Below, one piece after another: positions 39,836 through 45,989 of a DNA stretch of 64,000 bases; the first letter of the stretch is position 1; each line of letters starts with the position of its first letter. The notes under the pieces are model-generated. The model saw only the letters and a list, made by a program, of their open reading frames with translations, was not told where the DNA came from and made no database searches. Source of the stretch: Halomarina litorea (GTDB taxonomy: Archaea; Halobacteriota; Halobacteria; Halobacteriales; Haloarculaceae); the NCBI RefSeq assembly GCF_024227715.1, contig NZ_CP100449.1, positions 310,001 through 374,000 of the forward strand, in the 5' to 3' direction. The position numbers were made by a program, and so were the translations under genes.

Positions 39836-40296
39836 TCAGTCCTGGTCGAGCGTATAGCCCATCTGCAGGAGTTCGTCGAGAACATCCTCACGGTTGCGGA
39901 GTGCCGCCCGATAAACGGCTTCTCGGAGGTCGAACTTGGGGACGTCACGGCCAAGTGCTGACTCAACGCCGGTGATCAATTCGCGCTCGCCCTCAACGAC
40001 ATCGTCGTGAACGAAGAACGTGAGCCGCTCGTCGCGCTCGAACTGCACCGATTTGTCTTGGATCGCTCGCCGAACGATGTACGACTGTTCGGTAGTTTCC
40101 GGTTTTCTTGGCTCGATGGTGCCTGCTTTGGTTCATCATCGATGTCGCTTATCTCTGCTGGCGAGGCGGGCGTTGAAGTCTCGGATTCTTCGGAAGCTGG
40201 TGCTGTCTCAGCCGATTCTGCCTCATCATTCTCGTCTGCTTCCTCCGGTTCGTCACCCCACAGATCGTCGCCAGCGCCTGATTTGAGTCCGGTCAT
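39836..40296 (-). pseudogene. Frameshifted ParA-neighbour type plasmid protein
   Basis: From ATG 40296 the frame encodes MTGLKSGAGDDLWGDEPEEA and an acidic disordered stretch to about DDEPKQAPS. The frame then changes (between about 40130 and 40090), and the other frame continues EQSYIVRRAIQDKSVQFERD, FFVHDDVVEGERELI, DLREAVYRAALRNREDVLDE, ending at 39836. The acidic N-terminus followed by a compact helical end is typical of the small gene found beside parA on haloarchaeal plasmids and proviruses. One indel is enough to break it. An assembly error remains possible. Confidence 0.7.
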
Positions 40297-40530
40297 GCTT
40301 CGACCTCCGTGGCCACCTCGTCGAGCGTTCCTGGCTCAGGAGGGTTCGGTGCCTCGATTCCACGCTCTGTTTACCAGGGCCGCGACGGTGATGCATTCAA
40401 TCGGGCCCTCATCGAGAAAGCAGAGAGACGGAACGAGCGGTTCATCGACTGATCCGCATCGATATCCCAGGTCCTCACTATCGTCGGGTTGTGGCTGGTA
40501 GGGTGCCGTAGAACCATGGACTCCGACGCC
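40293..40530 (-). pseudogene. Remnant of the gene upstream, overlapping by ATGA
   Basis: The minus strand carries two in-order fragments in different frames. The first is QPDDSEDLGYRCGSVDEPLV followed by FLDEGPIECITVAALVNRAW (about 40530-40365). The second is RGIEAPNPPEPGTLDEVATE ending in a stop at 40295-40293. Both look coding (repeated Pro/Glu pattern, codon bias), but a shift near 40362 separates them and no start codon remains. The ATGA overlap with the next gene shows they were once an operon. I do not recognise the family. Confidence 0.5.
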
Positions 40531-40746
40531 AAGTCAGCGTGGAAATGAATTCAACTGGAGTGTTTTGTATCTGGCCAGGAGCATATGGCACGAAGACGAG
40601 TGCCTGTATGAATCGCTATGATTGCACTTGCATAATCGACTTGCCAACAGCCTTCGTGTACCCTACATAGACGACTGGTCTGTTGCCTGTAATGTTCGCA
40701 CGTTGATATCCCGATACACCGCTTAAAAATGACTATCATCGATAGC

Positions 40747-40753
40747 TATAAAT
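40747..40753 (+). promoter_or_regulatory. TATA box of the HNH nuclease gene
   Basis: TATAAAT lies 24-30 nt before the ATG at 40777, the spacing for a leaderless haloarchaeal transcript. It is one of the best TATA boxes in the window and argues that the HNH gene is expressed. Confidence 0.65.
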
Positions 40754-40776
40754 CTTCATGGCAATGAGGATGAACA

Positions 40777-41376
40777 ATGTCGCTCCCTCCTGAAGTGAAG
40801 ACGTATCGTGACCTCATCGCCTATCAGTACGCTCAGCTCATCGGCGTCGCTGCAGGTATCGACGATCATGGGTTCATCTTTTCGAAATTCTATAAGCTAC
40901 AAGCTGGAGAGATTGAAATGAGTTCACTCACAAAAGAAGACAAGTATCAGCTTCAGGAAGGGGTCGCATCGTGTATCTACTGCGGCTCGGAGGACGATAT
41001 CGGATTCGATCACATCATTCCACGGAGTACGGGCGGGCCGGATACGATCAGCAATCAAGTTCCAGCGTGCCAATCATGCAACTCTTCGAAAGGAGACCGT
41101 GACGTCATCGATTGGTTCCGAAACCAGAGCTGCCCCATTCCCCGTCTTGTCTGGGGAAAATACCTCAAGCACCTGTACGAACATCGGAAGACAGAGGGGA
41201 CGCTTGATGAGTCGCTTCCAAACGACGAACGAAATCGGTGGGAAGGGGCTGAGGTAACTCGAACAGTCTCAAAGCGGATTCGCAAACGCTACCGAGATTC
41301 GTCAAGTGAGACGCCTATCTCCACAGGGCGCTCCGAACCGGTTAATCGAAGTCTGAGTGAGTTTGGAGCCGAGTGA
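40777..41376 (+). CDS. HNH endonuclease
   Basis: The gene encodes 199 aa. The HNH core lies at residues 66-107: Cys66 and Cys69 (SCIYCG), FDHIIPRSTGGPD with catalytic Asp78-His79, Asn93, then VPACQSCNSSKGDRD with Cys98, Cys101 and Lys105. The two CxxC pairs hold a structural zinc. The 65 residues before the core are helical and of unknown type, and the C-terminal 70 residues are polar and probably disordered. It is clearly lower in GC than chromosomal neighbours. It converges with the large PQQ-Mrr-J gene and could be a defence nuclease or a homing-type relic. Confidence 0.88.
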   Translation: MSLPPEVKTYRDLIAYQYAQLIGVAAGIDDHGFIFSKFYKLQAGEIEMSSLTKEDKYQLQEGVASCIYCGSEDDIGFDHIIPRSTGGPDTISNQVPACQSCNSSKGDRDVIDWFRNQSCPIPRLVWGKYLKHLYEHRKTEGTLDESLPNDERNRWEGAEVTRTVSKRIRKRYRDSSSETPISTGRSEPVNRSLSEFGAE

Positions 41377-41623
41377 CTATCGAATGGGTGATTGGTAGGT
41401 CGGTGGGTGCCACCTCCTGTGGCGACTACGAATACCATCCTTACTGACTCGAATTCGTCATTGAGGGGGTTGGAACCCGCTCTTTTCATGGTACTCTCCA
41501 CCGGAGTGGAAAGGGCATGGATTCGACTGTTGCCAAAAACCCTCTCTATTCGGGAGATAGGCCAGAGTCAGATGACCTGCGTCGGGTTCTATCCAGCTGG
41601 CCACCGGCGGTGCTGCCGCTCAG

Positions 41624-44600
41624 TCAGTCGGAGGTGATACGCTCATACGCTTTCTTCACCCGAATAAACGTCGCTTCGTCGCCTCCACGGTCAGGATGGT
41701 GCTCTTGAACCTTCTCACGATACGCCCGTTTGACCCGTTCTTGATCAGCGCCTGGCTCGACACCCAGTATGAGATACGCTTGCCTGCGTCGTTCGCTTTT
41801 GACCTCCGCTGTGTTCTCGAGACGTTCTCTACATGCAGGACAACATTGGACAGTTTGACCGTTCGGCCCGGGTACTGACTTGAGTGACCCATTGATCGTG
41901 TCTCCGCACACTTCACATTCTTCGCTAGAAGTGTATTGGCCTGAAGCCGTCCGAGACCGAGACTGCCGTTGCCGGCTTTGATTGTGTGTCTGGTTTCTGT
42001 TGCTCGATCGCTGACGAGAGTTCGATTGCTGCCGTCTGTTGTGTTGGCTCGACCGCTTCCGGTGTCGCGACTTCGAGTTGCGGACCTTCGTTCGCGCTAT
42101 GCTGACCGTGATATCCAACTCATAGAGGTATGTTAGGAGCGTATTCCCATCGACCAAGTCGACGGGCTGATGTGCTTGTTCTGCGGCTTCTCTGGCTGTT
42201 GAAGTGAACGTCGAGCTGGTGACGATCACGATTCGTTTGGCCCCTACTGATGTTCCTTCGTTCACTGATTCCTCGACATCAGGCCGACCGACTTTGTTCC
42301 CTCTGGAGTATCGCTTGACTTCGATGCCGATTGCCTGATCTCCCCTTCTACCGAGGATATCGATTGCTCGGCCCGGTTTCTGTTGAGCAATGCTGACTTG
42401 ATAACCACGCTCGGAGTACAACAGAGCGATAAGATGCTCGAACTCTGTAGGGGTAAACGAGAGCAGGTCGTCGTGCGACCACGTTCGTTTGTTGATATGG
42501 TTTAACTGGTTTGCTACCGAATTGAGCTGCTCCAACGATAATGTCGAGATTCCATCTTGGATTCGAGCTTTGAACACCCGATGGGTGTCCTCTGTGTAGG
42601 AAAGATCCGTCTTCGCCAAGATGTCTTCGACCTCTGCAGCGTGGGTGAGGATCTCCGGGATGAGTTCAAGCCGCCCACTGGTGTGGCGTTCTGACTCTGT
42701 GGGCGAGAGCTTTTCAGAGATAACCGACCGCAGAGCGTTGAGATCATAACCGTTCAACTTAGACTCGTATTCGAAGAGTGCGGCAGTTGCATCGAGTGCT
42801 GCGTGACAGAACGTACGCTCATCGTTGCCTGCCTCCGACTCTGGCTCAATCACTCGTTGGACGATCGTGTCAAGGTAGTCTAAATCAAATCTCCCGCTAG
42901 CTCGCTCTGGAAGAGCACCCATCTTGCGGTCGAACACGGCGGCCGTTTTCAGAGCGGAGCGACACTCAGAAAGTGACCGCTGTAGTGTGTCTAACTCGGA
43001 GTTCTGAAGTTGATGACCAAGAGTTCCCGCCCACGCAGATGCAGTAGCCGGCCGGTCGAAGTCTTCGAGTCGTTTTGAGACTTCCGCTAATTTAGGCGCA
43101 ATCTCCAGTGCTGACTCGATCTGTGCTTCGATGTCACGGTATTCGGGTTCTGTCCGTAGAAGACTCCGTATTGGTGCGCCTGTCCAGTCCCGTTGCAAGC
43201 TCTCGATAGCGACTGGAACCTGCTGTATGAGGGCTCGAGGTTCTTCTCCTGCGAGGGGGCCGTCCTCGATTGGATAAGCCTGGCGCAGTTTCTCGAGGCG
43301 AGCTTCCAATCTCTGAACTCGGTAGTTTCGAACACTGAATCTACCTCCGGTGTACGAAGCACTCGCGACACCTACGCCGAGTCCTGCTTCAACGACACCG
43401 CGAGTTAGTCCTGCGTTGTTCGCCTCTGTTACCGCTGATGAATAGTCTCCTTCCTCGAACGAAGCCCTAGCAGCCTCAACTTTTTCTCCACGACCGAAGA
43501 GATCGGCGAGACGATCAGAGACGCTTCCGAAGAGTCCACCAGAGTCAGCGCCTTGGATAGCCTCCATCGCTGCTCCGCGTTGGCCTTGGTGCACAGCGAC
43601 CCAATTACCGGCTGCCGTGATCACGCCACCATTGGTCGTCCAAAGAAACCCATCCCCCTCCACGAATTCGTAATCCCATACGGTCTTAGCGGTAGTAACA
43701 TCGAGGCCGAAAAACTGACCATCACGAGTGCCGACATAGAGGAGCCCCCTATCGTGTGTCAGGTCGTAGATCGGTGAAGGGCTCTTCGCCTTCCACTCGA
43801 TCTGCATGGACTCCTTGTTCAAGGCGTGAACGACGGAGTCGATCGAGTAATACACACGATCGGGGCCTGATGTGAGGTCATCAGTAGTCCCTCCTACCGA
43901 TCTATTCCATAGGCTCTTTCCAGTCTTTGAGTCGAGCGCGTGCAACACATTGGTATTCGTCATTGCCAGCAAGCGCCCGGTGTCATGATCATATCTCAAC
44001 CGGCGAACGTCGATGTCGGACCTGCGCCACAACTCCGAACCAGTCGTTTTCTCGCGTCCAACGACATCGCTCGTGTAGATCGTCCACTGGTCGTTTTCCC
44101 ACATTCGATCCGAGTCAAGATGACACACGACCGAATCGAACGGAAAGAACTGACTGAGATATTCTCCCGTCTTCTCCCATTTCTGAGCCCCCTCTTCCGA
44201 ATAGACCGTAACTGACCCGTTCGAGATATTATATCGAGAGTCACCCGAGGTACCTACATCTGTAAGATTGAACGAGGAGACAGGTACCGCAGATCCCCAC
44301 GAACGCCAAAGGAACGAGATGTCCTTCGTCCGTGTCCGTGTCCACCGCTGCTCACCCGTTGAGGGATAGAGGCCGATCAAATTCGGCCCCTGTTGCAAAA
44401 CTGCTGTATCGCCTGCGAGATATGGCCCAGTAAGTGAATACTCGTGCGAGCGCTCCCATAGGGTTTCGGTGGTCTCCAGATCGATTGCCAATGTTGTTGC
44501 TTCGTTGTATTCCGTATTATCGACCGACAGGTACAGCGTACCATCGTAGATGTCTTCTAACGAAACTGCACGGCCGGTAGTCCCTTTCTGCTCGGCAAGT

Positions 44601-44764
44601 TCCATTCGCCACTGTTCTTCGAGCGGCAGCCCGATCTGGTACTGTGCCGTTTCGTCGGTAGTCGCATCTGACGTCCCTTGGCCCATCGCTCCGATCATTG
44701 GTCCTGCCGCGAGCCCCCTCAAAAATCGCCGTCTGGTAGTTTGGCGCCCAAACTCTCGACGCAT
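41624..44764 (-). CDS. Tat signal - PQQ beta-propeller - Mrr nuclease - zinc finger - J-domain protein
   Basis: The gene encodes 1046 aa. Residues 9-27 form a twin-arginine-like signal (TTRRRFLRGLAAG). Residues 70-395 form a beta-propeller with seven PQQ-type blades. Their closing Trp positions are near 103, 141, 196, 246, 286, 324 and 363 (for example TTGSELW, KTGKSLW). Residues 420-765 are helical. Residues 770-880 are Mrr-like restriction endonuclease: FTPTEFEHLIALLYSERGY, then PD-(D/E)xK residues Asp802, Glu815 and Lys817 in IDILGRRGDQAIGIEVKRY. Residues 893-946 are an Arg/Ser/Gln-rich linker. Cys950, 953, 974/975 and 978 suggest a zinc finger. Residues 994-1046 are a J-domain with HPD at 1023-1025. 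I know no described protein with this order. Confidence 0.85.
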   Translation of the reverse strand: MRREFGRQTTRRRFLRGLAAGPMIGAMGQGTSDATTDETAQYQIGLPLEEQWRMELAEQKGTTGRAVSLEDIYDGTLYLSVDNTEYNEATTLAIDLETTETLWERSHEYSLTGPYLAGDTAVLQQGPNLIGLYPSTGEQRWTRTRTKDISFLWRSWGSAVPVSSFNLTDVGTSGDSRYNISNGSVTVYSEEGAQKWEKTGEYLSQFFPFDSVVCHLDSDRMWENDQWTIYTSDVVGREKTTGSELWRRSDIDVRRLRYDHDTGRLLAMTNTNVLHALDSKTGKSLWNRSVGGTTDDLTSGPDRVYYSIDSVVHALNKESMQIEWKAKSPSPIYDLTHDRGLLYVGTRDGQFFGLDVTTAKTVWDYEFVEGDGFLWTTNGGVITAAGNWVAVHQGQRGAAMEAIQGADSGGLFGSVSDRLADLFGRGEKVEAARASFEEGDYSSAVTEANNAGLTRGVVEAGLGVGVASASYTGGRFSVRNYRVQRLEARLEKLRQAYPIEDGPLAGEEPRALIQQVPVAIESLQRDWTGAPIRSLLRTEPEYRDIEAQIESALEIAPKLAEVSKRLEDFDRPATASAWAGTLGHQLQNSELDTLQRSLSECRSALKTAAVFDRKMGALPERASGRFDLDYLDTIVQRVIEPESEAGNDERTFCHAALDATAALFEYESKLNGYDLNALRSVISEKLSPTESERHTSGRLELIPEILTHAAEVEDILAKTDLSYTEDTHRVFKARIQDGISTLSLEQLNSVANQLNHINKRTWSHDDLLSFTPTEFEHLIALLYSERGYQVSIAQQKPGRAIDILGRRGDQAIGIEVKRYSRGNKVGRPDVEESVNEGTSVGAKRIVIVTSSTFTSTAREAAEQAHQPVDLVDGNTLLTYLYELDITVSIARTKVRNSKSRHRKRSSQHNRRQQSNSRQRSSNRNQTHNQSRQRQSRSRTASGQYTSSEECEVCGDTINGSLKSVPGPNGQTVQCCPACRERLENTAEVKSERRRQAYLILGVEPGADQERVKRAYREKVQEHHPDRGGDEATFIRVKKAYERITSD

Positions 44765-44784
44765 TGACCTGACGATGTGTTAGA

Positions 44785-44791
44785 CATATAA
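44785..44791 (-). promoter_or_regulatory. TATA-like box of the PQQ-Mrr-J gene
   Basis: On the minus strand TTATATG lies 21-27 nt before the ATG at 44764, which fits a leaderless transcript beginning at that codon. It supports the start that includes the twin-arginine motif rather than an internal Met. Confidence 0.55.
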
Positions 44792-44985
44792 GAGTGTGCG
44801 GGTTTGTGAGTTGCCACTCCCGAATTTCATTTGTTCGTCGCCACTCCTAATCCCGAACCATTCGTAATCGCACCAGCAGTCGTTGGGTACGTTTATCGGA
44901 CGTCTCACTGGTGTGTATCGGTCGAATTACGTCGATTTTTACATGCGGCTGTTGCGAGGCCTTGACCAGACGAGCAACCGCCCCC

Positions 44986-45322
44986 TCAATCTGCGTTTGC
45001 GTTTGCAGTTGTGTCGTCGAGACTGAGGTGGCCAACGAGCAGCGGGTCGACGGCGTCAAGATTCACCCAGCCGGGGAGCGATACGTCGCCTCGCCAGAGA
45101 GCCAACCCGTGGAGCGTGTTTGCACCCTCTTTTCGGCTAATTGTACACCGCGTCTGGGCAGGCTCTAGTCTCGGTTCGATCGCGTATTCCATCCATTCCT
45201 CGTGTACACCAGATAGTTTCCCGGTGACTTCTCGTATCAGCTAGGCGTTCACTCATCGCGCGGATGTCCTGTGGACCAGTCATCGGGAACTCTCGGTCTA
45301 CTTCGTTGGCTCTGGTGCTCAT
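44986..45322 (-). pseudogene. Frameshifted haloarchaeal plasmid-type ORF
   Basis: From ATG 45322 the frame encodes MSTRANEVDREFPMTGPQDI and RAMSERLADTRSHRE. Near 45218 the frame changes, and another frame continues KLSGVHEEWMEYAIEPRLEP, RKEGANTLHGLALWRGDVSL and PGWVNLDAVDPLLVGHLSLD to a stop at 44986. The join restores a sensible single protein of about 112 aa, so one small indel broke the gene. It overlaps the upstream zinc-finger gene by ATGA, an operon arrangement. Function is unknown. The gene type is familiar to me from haloarchaeal plasmids, but I cannot name its family. Confidence 0.65.
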
Positions 45323-45534
45323 CGCGATGGCTCGTGATATGGGCACTCCTCGGTGTGGACTAGTCGCTCTCGACCGCCGAGAGCACCCAGTAGTTCTCGG
45401 TTACATGCTCTACAACGAACGTACCGCTTGCCTCCCTGCGCGAGTGGTTCGACGTGCTCGGTGATCGCTAGCTGCGCTGCGTGGTCAGTCGATGATGCAT
45501 CTCGTCGCTCGGACTGGTCGCTCGTTTCGCTCAT
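45319..45534 (-). CDS. Small zinc-finger protein, plasmid type
   Basis: The gene encodes 71 aa from ATG 45534 (MSETSDQSERRDASSTDHAA). Core: ITEHVEPLAQGGKRYVRCRA with CRAC followed by RLVHTEECPYHEP, giving two Cys, His, Cys, His as likely zinc ligands. The frame is intact and overlaps the next, frameshifted gene by ATGA. Such small proteins accompany replication or partition genes on haloarchaeal plasmids, so this may be a relic that still reads through. Confidence 0.6.
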   Translation of the reverse strand: MSETSDQSERRDASSTDHAAQLAITEHVEPLAQGGKRYVRCRACNRELLGALGGRERLVHTEECPYHEPSR

Positions 45535-45749
45535 AATCGATCCGAGACTGCTCTGTCGAGCACCCCCGCACCCCTCAGGGGGAAATAAACTGATTGGGCG
45601 GTCGCTGGTAAGCGGACCTCGTCCGGTGAACTGGCCACTCCACGTGGACATCTTCAGAATAGGTAGAAGACTCGCCTGAAGGACGACTTTTGGCCGTACT
45701 GTTAACCGAGACCCGATACTACTGTATCATTCCTCCGAGAGAACATTGA

Positions 45750-45989
45750 CATACTACCCCGGAGATTGACCAATGGCAGGATCTGACGCCCCCCGACGGA
45801 CCGCTGACCGACGCCGAGCTCGCGTCATTTCGAGAGGCCCTCAACGCGCTCGAAGAGTGCGTGAGTGCGTTCCTCGCTGAGAGATCCGACCAGACGGCAG
45901 GAGAAATCGACGCGGCCGTCGACGAGTACCCGACGGCCGATCCACTCGAGGATCGGCCGATTGACGCCTCGGACGACGACAGCGAATGA
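45750..45989 (+). pseudogene. N-terminally truncated small acidic protein
   Basis: An open stretch with coding character reads TTPEIDQWQDLTPPDGPLTD, then AELASFREALNALEECVSAF and an acidic end to a stop at 45987-45989. There is an in-frame TGA at 45747 just before and no start codon inside the early part. It therefore looks like the tail of a gene whose beginning was lost. It lies at the right edge of the islet. Family not recognised. Confidence 0.45.

Follow-up and report, generated by a model that had tools for sequence, protein, structure and literature searches.

The gene considered here lies on the minus strand of the window, by which we mean the whole 64,000-nucleotide stretch of Halomarina litorea DNA that was analysed, and forms one frame of 1046 aa that starts with ATG and has no internal stop. 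Its parts and its immediate surroundings are the following:

39845..45969, no strand: low-GC island, core at 53-55% GC versus ~68% for the replicon, with plasmid remnants at both edges
40777..41376, plus strand: HNH endonuclease gene matched by Pfam, convergent neighbour in the island, linked to the main gene by position only
41624..44764, minus strand: whole gene, 1046 aa, comprising Tat signal, propeller, transmembrane (TM)-like segment, helical region, Mrr domain, linker, zinc finger and J-domain
44785..44792, minus strand: TATA-like CTTATATG, 21-28 nt upstream of the ATG, read from the sequence
44660..44764, minus strand: twin-arginine (Tat) signal, aa 1-35, with RRRFL; RRxxL is invariant among homologues
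43565..44653, minus strand: propeller of PQQ/BamB type, aa 38-400, with eight Trp motifs (Pfam, sequence matches, Trp positions)
43343..43399, minus strand: putative transmembrane helix, aa 456-474, a conserved hydrophobic stretch with basic residues after it (family hydropathy peak)
42470..43342, minus strand: helical region, aa 475-765, presumably a stalk in the cytosol (sequence comparison)
42131..42463, minus strand: Mrr nuclease domain of PD-(D/E)xK type, aa 768-878, with D802, E815 and K817 (Pfam, residues)
41921..42094, minus strand: basic Arg/Ser/Gln linker, aa 891-948, with 17 K/R and 1 D/E
41831..41917, minus strand: zinc finger CxxC...CCxxC, aa 950-978 (sequence, homologue comparison)
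41636..41779, minus strand: J-domain with HPD, aa 996-1043 (Pfam, predicted structure)

The spacing of the TATA-like element from the ATG appears to match, as expected, that of leaderless haloarchaeal mRNA. Three of the domains exceed their curated Pfam cut-offs: Mrr_cat (PF04471; aa 768-878, 4e-21, 75.7 bits versus a cut-off of 21), PQQ_2 (3e-16, in three stretches) and DnaJ (aa 996-1043, 2e-10). The Mrr domain is a putative nuclease. At the N-terminus, TTRRRFLRG constitutes the twin-Arg motif and precedes a hydrophobic stretch, from which export of the propeller by Tat is predicted, whereas at the opposite end the finger cysteines are C950, C953, C974, C975 and C978, and the HPD motif corresponds to H1023-P1024-D1025. 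A first-pass annotation of the same DNA had named the twin arginines, propeller, Mrr domain, basic linker, CxxC...CCxxC and HPD J-domain as parts of one frame, all of which we confirmed, finding Asp802, Glu815 and Lys817 where it had placed them, together with the finger cysteines and HPD. It had counted seven propeller blades, a number that we revise: with W52 included, there are eight Trp-closed repeats of TG..W type (W52, 103, 141, 196, 246, 286, 324 and 363), and among the solved structures that match best by sequence are BamB and further PQQ propellers, so that eight blades, as in BamB, seem likelier than seven. Single-sequence structure prediction was confident for the finger-J tail (block-mean pLDDT 74-96) and gave no confident model for propeller plus stalk (mean pLDDT 37.6). 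The same annotation overlooked the conserved hydrophobic segment around aa 456-474 and the helical region of ~290 aa that separates the propeller from the Mrr domain.

Such a combination of domains might reflect an artefact of assembly or frame joining separate genes, a reading whose probability we consider negligible: nothing was found in its favour, and full-length homologues from other genomes, diverged and stop-free, keep the parts in the same order, which in a test set beforehand refutes it. These homologues are five in number, with 20-29% identity to the window protein. L007, from genome G035, was found among 57 genomes of the taxonomic family and aligns over aa 10-1044 with 29% identity, retaining the complete architecture in the same order, including CxxC...CCxxC and HPD. 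L099 and L100 were found with a profile of the middle region, while L113 and L114, nearly identical to each other, were found with a profile built from four members. All four keep signal, propeller, middle and Mrr; L099 has a J-domain without the finger, whereas L100 and L113/L114 have no J. Hence, one further homologue keeps everything, one has J without finger and three end after Mrr. Common to all six members are the twin-Arg motif RRxxL, the Trp repeats of the propeller, the helical middle and the Mrr catalytic site, in which D802 and K817 accompany E or Q at position 815 (Q in the others). The chance of finding RRx[FILV]L within the first 22 aa is ~0.0014 per sequence, yet the motif is present in all the homologues. 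Because order and motifs are kept at only 20-29% identity, the conservation argues for selection on the whole chain rather than chance. The family is patchy and rare, occurring in 6 of 392 sampled Halobacteriales genomes. No additional member emerged from a phylum-wide sample of 295 genomes, and no full-length homologue from two genome-contig scans, one of which gave nothing and the other only actinobacterial Mrr domains; viral contigs contained isolated J or Mrr matches only, and phage records gave no match.

The last ~105 aa of the protein match, finger and J together, the C-terminal end of a haloarchaeal finger-J protein that stands alone (L079, L082, L084), which has the same order of the two elements and 38-41% identity over the whole tail. 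What is a separate protein in those cases is a C-terminal module in the window protein, and the tail thus looks like a captured accessory module. The first-pass annotation had proposed that DnaK binding remodels the protein and releases the nuclease, which would put the J-domain at the core of the mechanism, a view that does not hold across the family: J is present in three of the six members (two of the three that lack it being near-identical) and the finger in two of the six. With the tail in only three of six members, the J-domain would modulate rather than define the system.

In functional terms, the presence of a Tat signal on a protein ending in a nuclease raises a question: On which side of the membrane does each part lie? 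The earlier annotation saw here a paradox, for which it offered either a nuclease acting outside or an uncleaved signal holding the protein at the membrane. A membrane location fits our results, but the paradox itself is probably none, in view of the conserved internal hydrophobic segment and of relatives with TM-ectodomain-TM-Mrr organization, and we favour a third option, in which the propeller is outside and the nuclease inside. In the hydropathy profile of the family alignment, the two highest peaks are aa 456-474, at z 2.8, and the Tat signal, at z 2.6. The segment is strongly hydrophobic in L100 (KD 1.85), whereas values in the other members are weak to moderate, being below 1.0 in L099 and 1.06 in the window protein, where it contains a Glu; a TM helix is thus likely rather than established. 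Counts of N-glycosylation sequons do not separate outside from inside. Additional evidence comes from the tree of Mrr domains, in which the window family and its TM relatives form a clade with support of 100/99 against PH-Mrr proteins. Its 681-aa members (L008, L073, L132 and L133) have a TM, a beta-rich ectodomain, a second TM, the helical region and Mrr, while L042 and L037 have four or six N-terminal TMs before the helical region and Mrr; L038, with no clear TM, is the sole exception seen. Large haloarchaeal Mrr proteins, as surveyed, mostly have other layouts, either PH-like plus Mrr or Mrr plus C-terminal TMs. Since the tree does not resolve the branching order inside the clade, it does not establish that the J tail was gained only once. 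Together, the conserved segment and the TM-ectodomain-TM and multi-TM relatives would place the propeller outside and the Mrr nuclease with the finger-J tail inside, making the protein a transmembrane receptor-nuclease. Tat can integrate proteins with a single helix, occasionally an internal one (PMC10924467); a Tat substrate carrying ~570 cytosolic residues beyond its helix would be unusual.

Two other topologies have to be weighed against this arrangement. The protein could be a cytosolic or peripheral Mrr protein with a vestigial signal, whose propeller recognises a ligand inside the cell and whose nuclease is under the control of DnaK; the weakness of the TM-like segment in the window protein would agree with this, as would the existence on haloarchaeal plasmids of Ser/Thr kinase-propeller fusions without evident signal. 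We regard it as quite unlikely, given that the twin arginines are strictly kept at such low identity, that hydropathy peaks at aa 456-474 and that membrane-anchored relatives share the Mrr clade. Slightly less probable still is the export of the entire protein, signal-anchored or free, to act on extracellular DNA: the Tat signal, which by its sequence has no lipobox Cys, is consistent with this, but J-domains and Cys-rich fingers suit the cytosol, relatives with two TMs put Mrr inside, and the internal hydrophobic segment also speaks against it.

Returning to the transmembrane arrangement, the genomic setting bears on what the protein may do. The window copy sits in a plasmid-derived island, whose left edge (39845-40368) carries an apparently degraded fragment matching ParA and partner genes of haloarchaeal megaplasmids, and whose right edge carries a plasmid fragment matching a 12.9-kb plasmid. 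The HNH gene within it is matched, for the greater part of its length, by the phage-borne HNH family PHROG 2118; no Rfam RNA was found in the island, and no multi-gene defence system was recognised beside this copy. L007 is located on a 181-kb replicon, in a defence island that holds genes for DUF1156/HmaB-like methylases together with PifA-like and TmtA genes (PADLOC) and a McrBC-like gene (label read from the sequence). L099 and L100 adjoin VirB4/TrwB-like transfer genes, the former being also near an ApeA-HEPN gene, and L113/L114 adjoin a PLD-type protein (again labelled from its sequence). These neighbourhoods agree with what had been proposed for the protein, a place at the membrane and a role akin to defence. 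Context alone does not separate antiviral defence from competition between mobile elements, because defence genes are often carried on such elements. The main rival to antiviral defence is that the same transmembrane protein serves element maintenance or the competition between mobile elements, the latter by excluding plasmids or conjugation-like DNA from entry. The transfer genes next to L099 and L100, the plasmid debris around the window copy and the 181-kb replicon of L007 all favour this possibility, and the dense antiviral-type island around L007 counts against it; on balance we consider it rather unlikely. As a separate observation, two DUF1156/HmaB-like methylase genes, the second shorter, flank the complete homologue in G035 (L039, 8991-11681 and 17750-19807).

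Our preferred reading, to which we give an even chance, is that the window protein belongs to a rare family of haloarchaeal proteins, carried on mobile DNA, that act as transmembrane receptor-nucleases and cut DNA near the membrane after a surface trigger. The Tat signal would export the folded propeller until the single hydrophobic helix around aa 456-474 stops transfer; what follows would remain in the cytosol, namely the helical stalk and the Mrr nuclease, to which this subgroup adds the finger-J tail. Upon meeting a surface trigger, which might be a virus, a conjugating partner or an envelope change, the propeller would pass a signal via the stalk to Mrr, and this would then cleave DNA next to the membrane, most probably DNA on its way into the cell. 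The finger-J tail may recruit DnaK for restraint or reset of the nuclease. The computations establish the fusion and its conservation, the catalytic and HPD residues, the retention of the twin arginines and the mobile or defence surroundings, whereas topology, trigger, entering DNA as the target and the part played by DnaK are inferred.

The nearest mechanistic precedent would be SNIPE, a membrane-tethered cytosolic nuclease of bacteria that can cut phage DNA at injection, its tethering separating self from incoming DNA (PMC13190303). If the topology proposed here is right, both proteins have a membrane-tethered nuclease with a cytosolic catalytic part and a variable N-terminal part. SNIPE differs in having DUF4041 and GIY-YIG, neither of which was matched in the window protein by Pfam scan, and in lacking a propeller ectodomain, Mrr and J-domain. 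With Mrr and type IV restriction endonucleases the window protein shares the Mrr_cat fold and the D-x-[EQ]xK site, but classical Mrr is short and soluble, whereas here Mrr ends a chassis with exported propeller and TM-like segment. ZorD of Zorya (PADLOC) is similar in its Mrr-like nuclease domain and membrane-linked defence; the window protein, however, matches only the last ~135 positions of the ZorD profile and lacks the SWI2/SNF2 helicase, no helicase family appearing in the Pfam scan, and an unsystematic look recognised no ZorAB motor genes alongside. Propellers of BamB/YxaL type have in common with ours the eight repeats and the sequence match, but the window protein scores below the BamB equivalog cut-off (32.2 versus 285.2 bits), has no context of outer membrane or BAM complex and carries its propeller fused to an effector. 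Every part is known singly, while the chain as a whole is new within the open-access literature searched, where no published description of a propeller-Mrr-J fusion was found.

Should the topology hold, a single protein would sense at the surface and cut DNA just inside the membrane, and would carry the entry-site strategy, until now demonstrated for SNIPE, into archaea in an outside-in version. More tentatively, since we hold it to be possible rather than probable, the clade may represent a class of transmembrane receptor-nucleases in archaea that is built from modules: surface sensors that can be exchanged (a propeller exported by Tat, a beta ectodomain between TMs or a multi-TM bundle) would be combined with one helical chassis, a cytosolic Mrr and an optional DnaK-recruiting tail, so that an outside-in signal would lead straight to the cutting of DNA and need neither a second messenger nor a separate effector. 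There is a real chance that this class as a whole is new. The window protein would also offer a testable example of nuclease control by a J-domain, and of a protein with a large cytosolic part being handled by Tat.

Some observations on other genes deserve mention. A Halomicrobium plasmid cluster with propeller genes (L145, NZ_CP039376.1) was considered as a family member and ruled out, for it holds kinase-propeller fusions. The cluster has several genes for Ser/Thr kinases, some of which are joined to HEAT repeats, to a PQQ propeller at the C-terminus or to both, and they are accompanied by Fic, Mrr, TnpB and a chaperonin-family gene. At L036 (NZ_CP095490.1, 5248-6609), a restriction endonuclease annotated with 453 aa has a frame that opens upstream to ~683 codons; the extension contains a TM, an ectodomain and a second TM, and the annotated start hides this membrane part. 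Finally, a 681-aa gene of TM-ectodomain-TM-Mrr type lies near a divergent gene of ~456 aa at L095 (G129:C2, 547-2592 and 4873-6243), a pairing seen also in G171:C9 and G168:C16, hence in three genomes; the ~456-aa gene has an N-terminal Mrr and a C-terminal TM, a type widespread in Halobacteriales.
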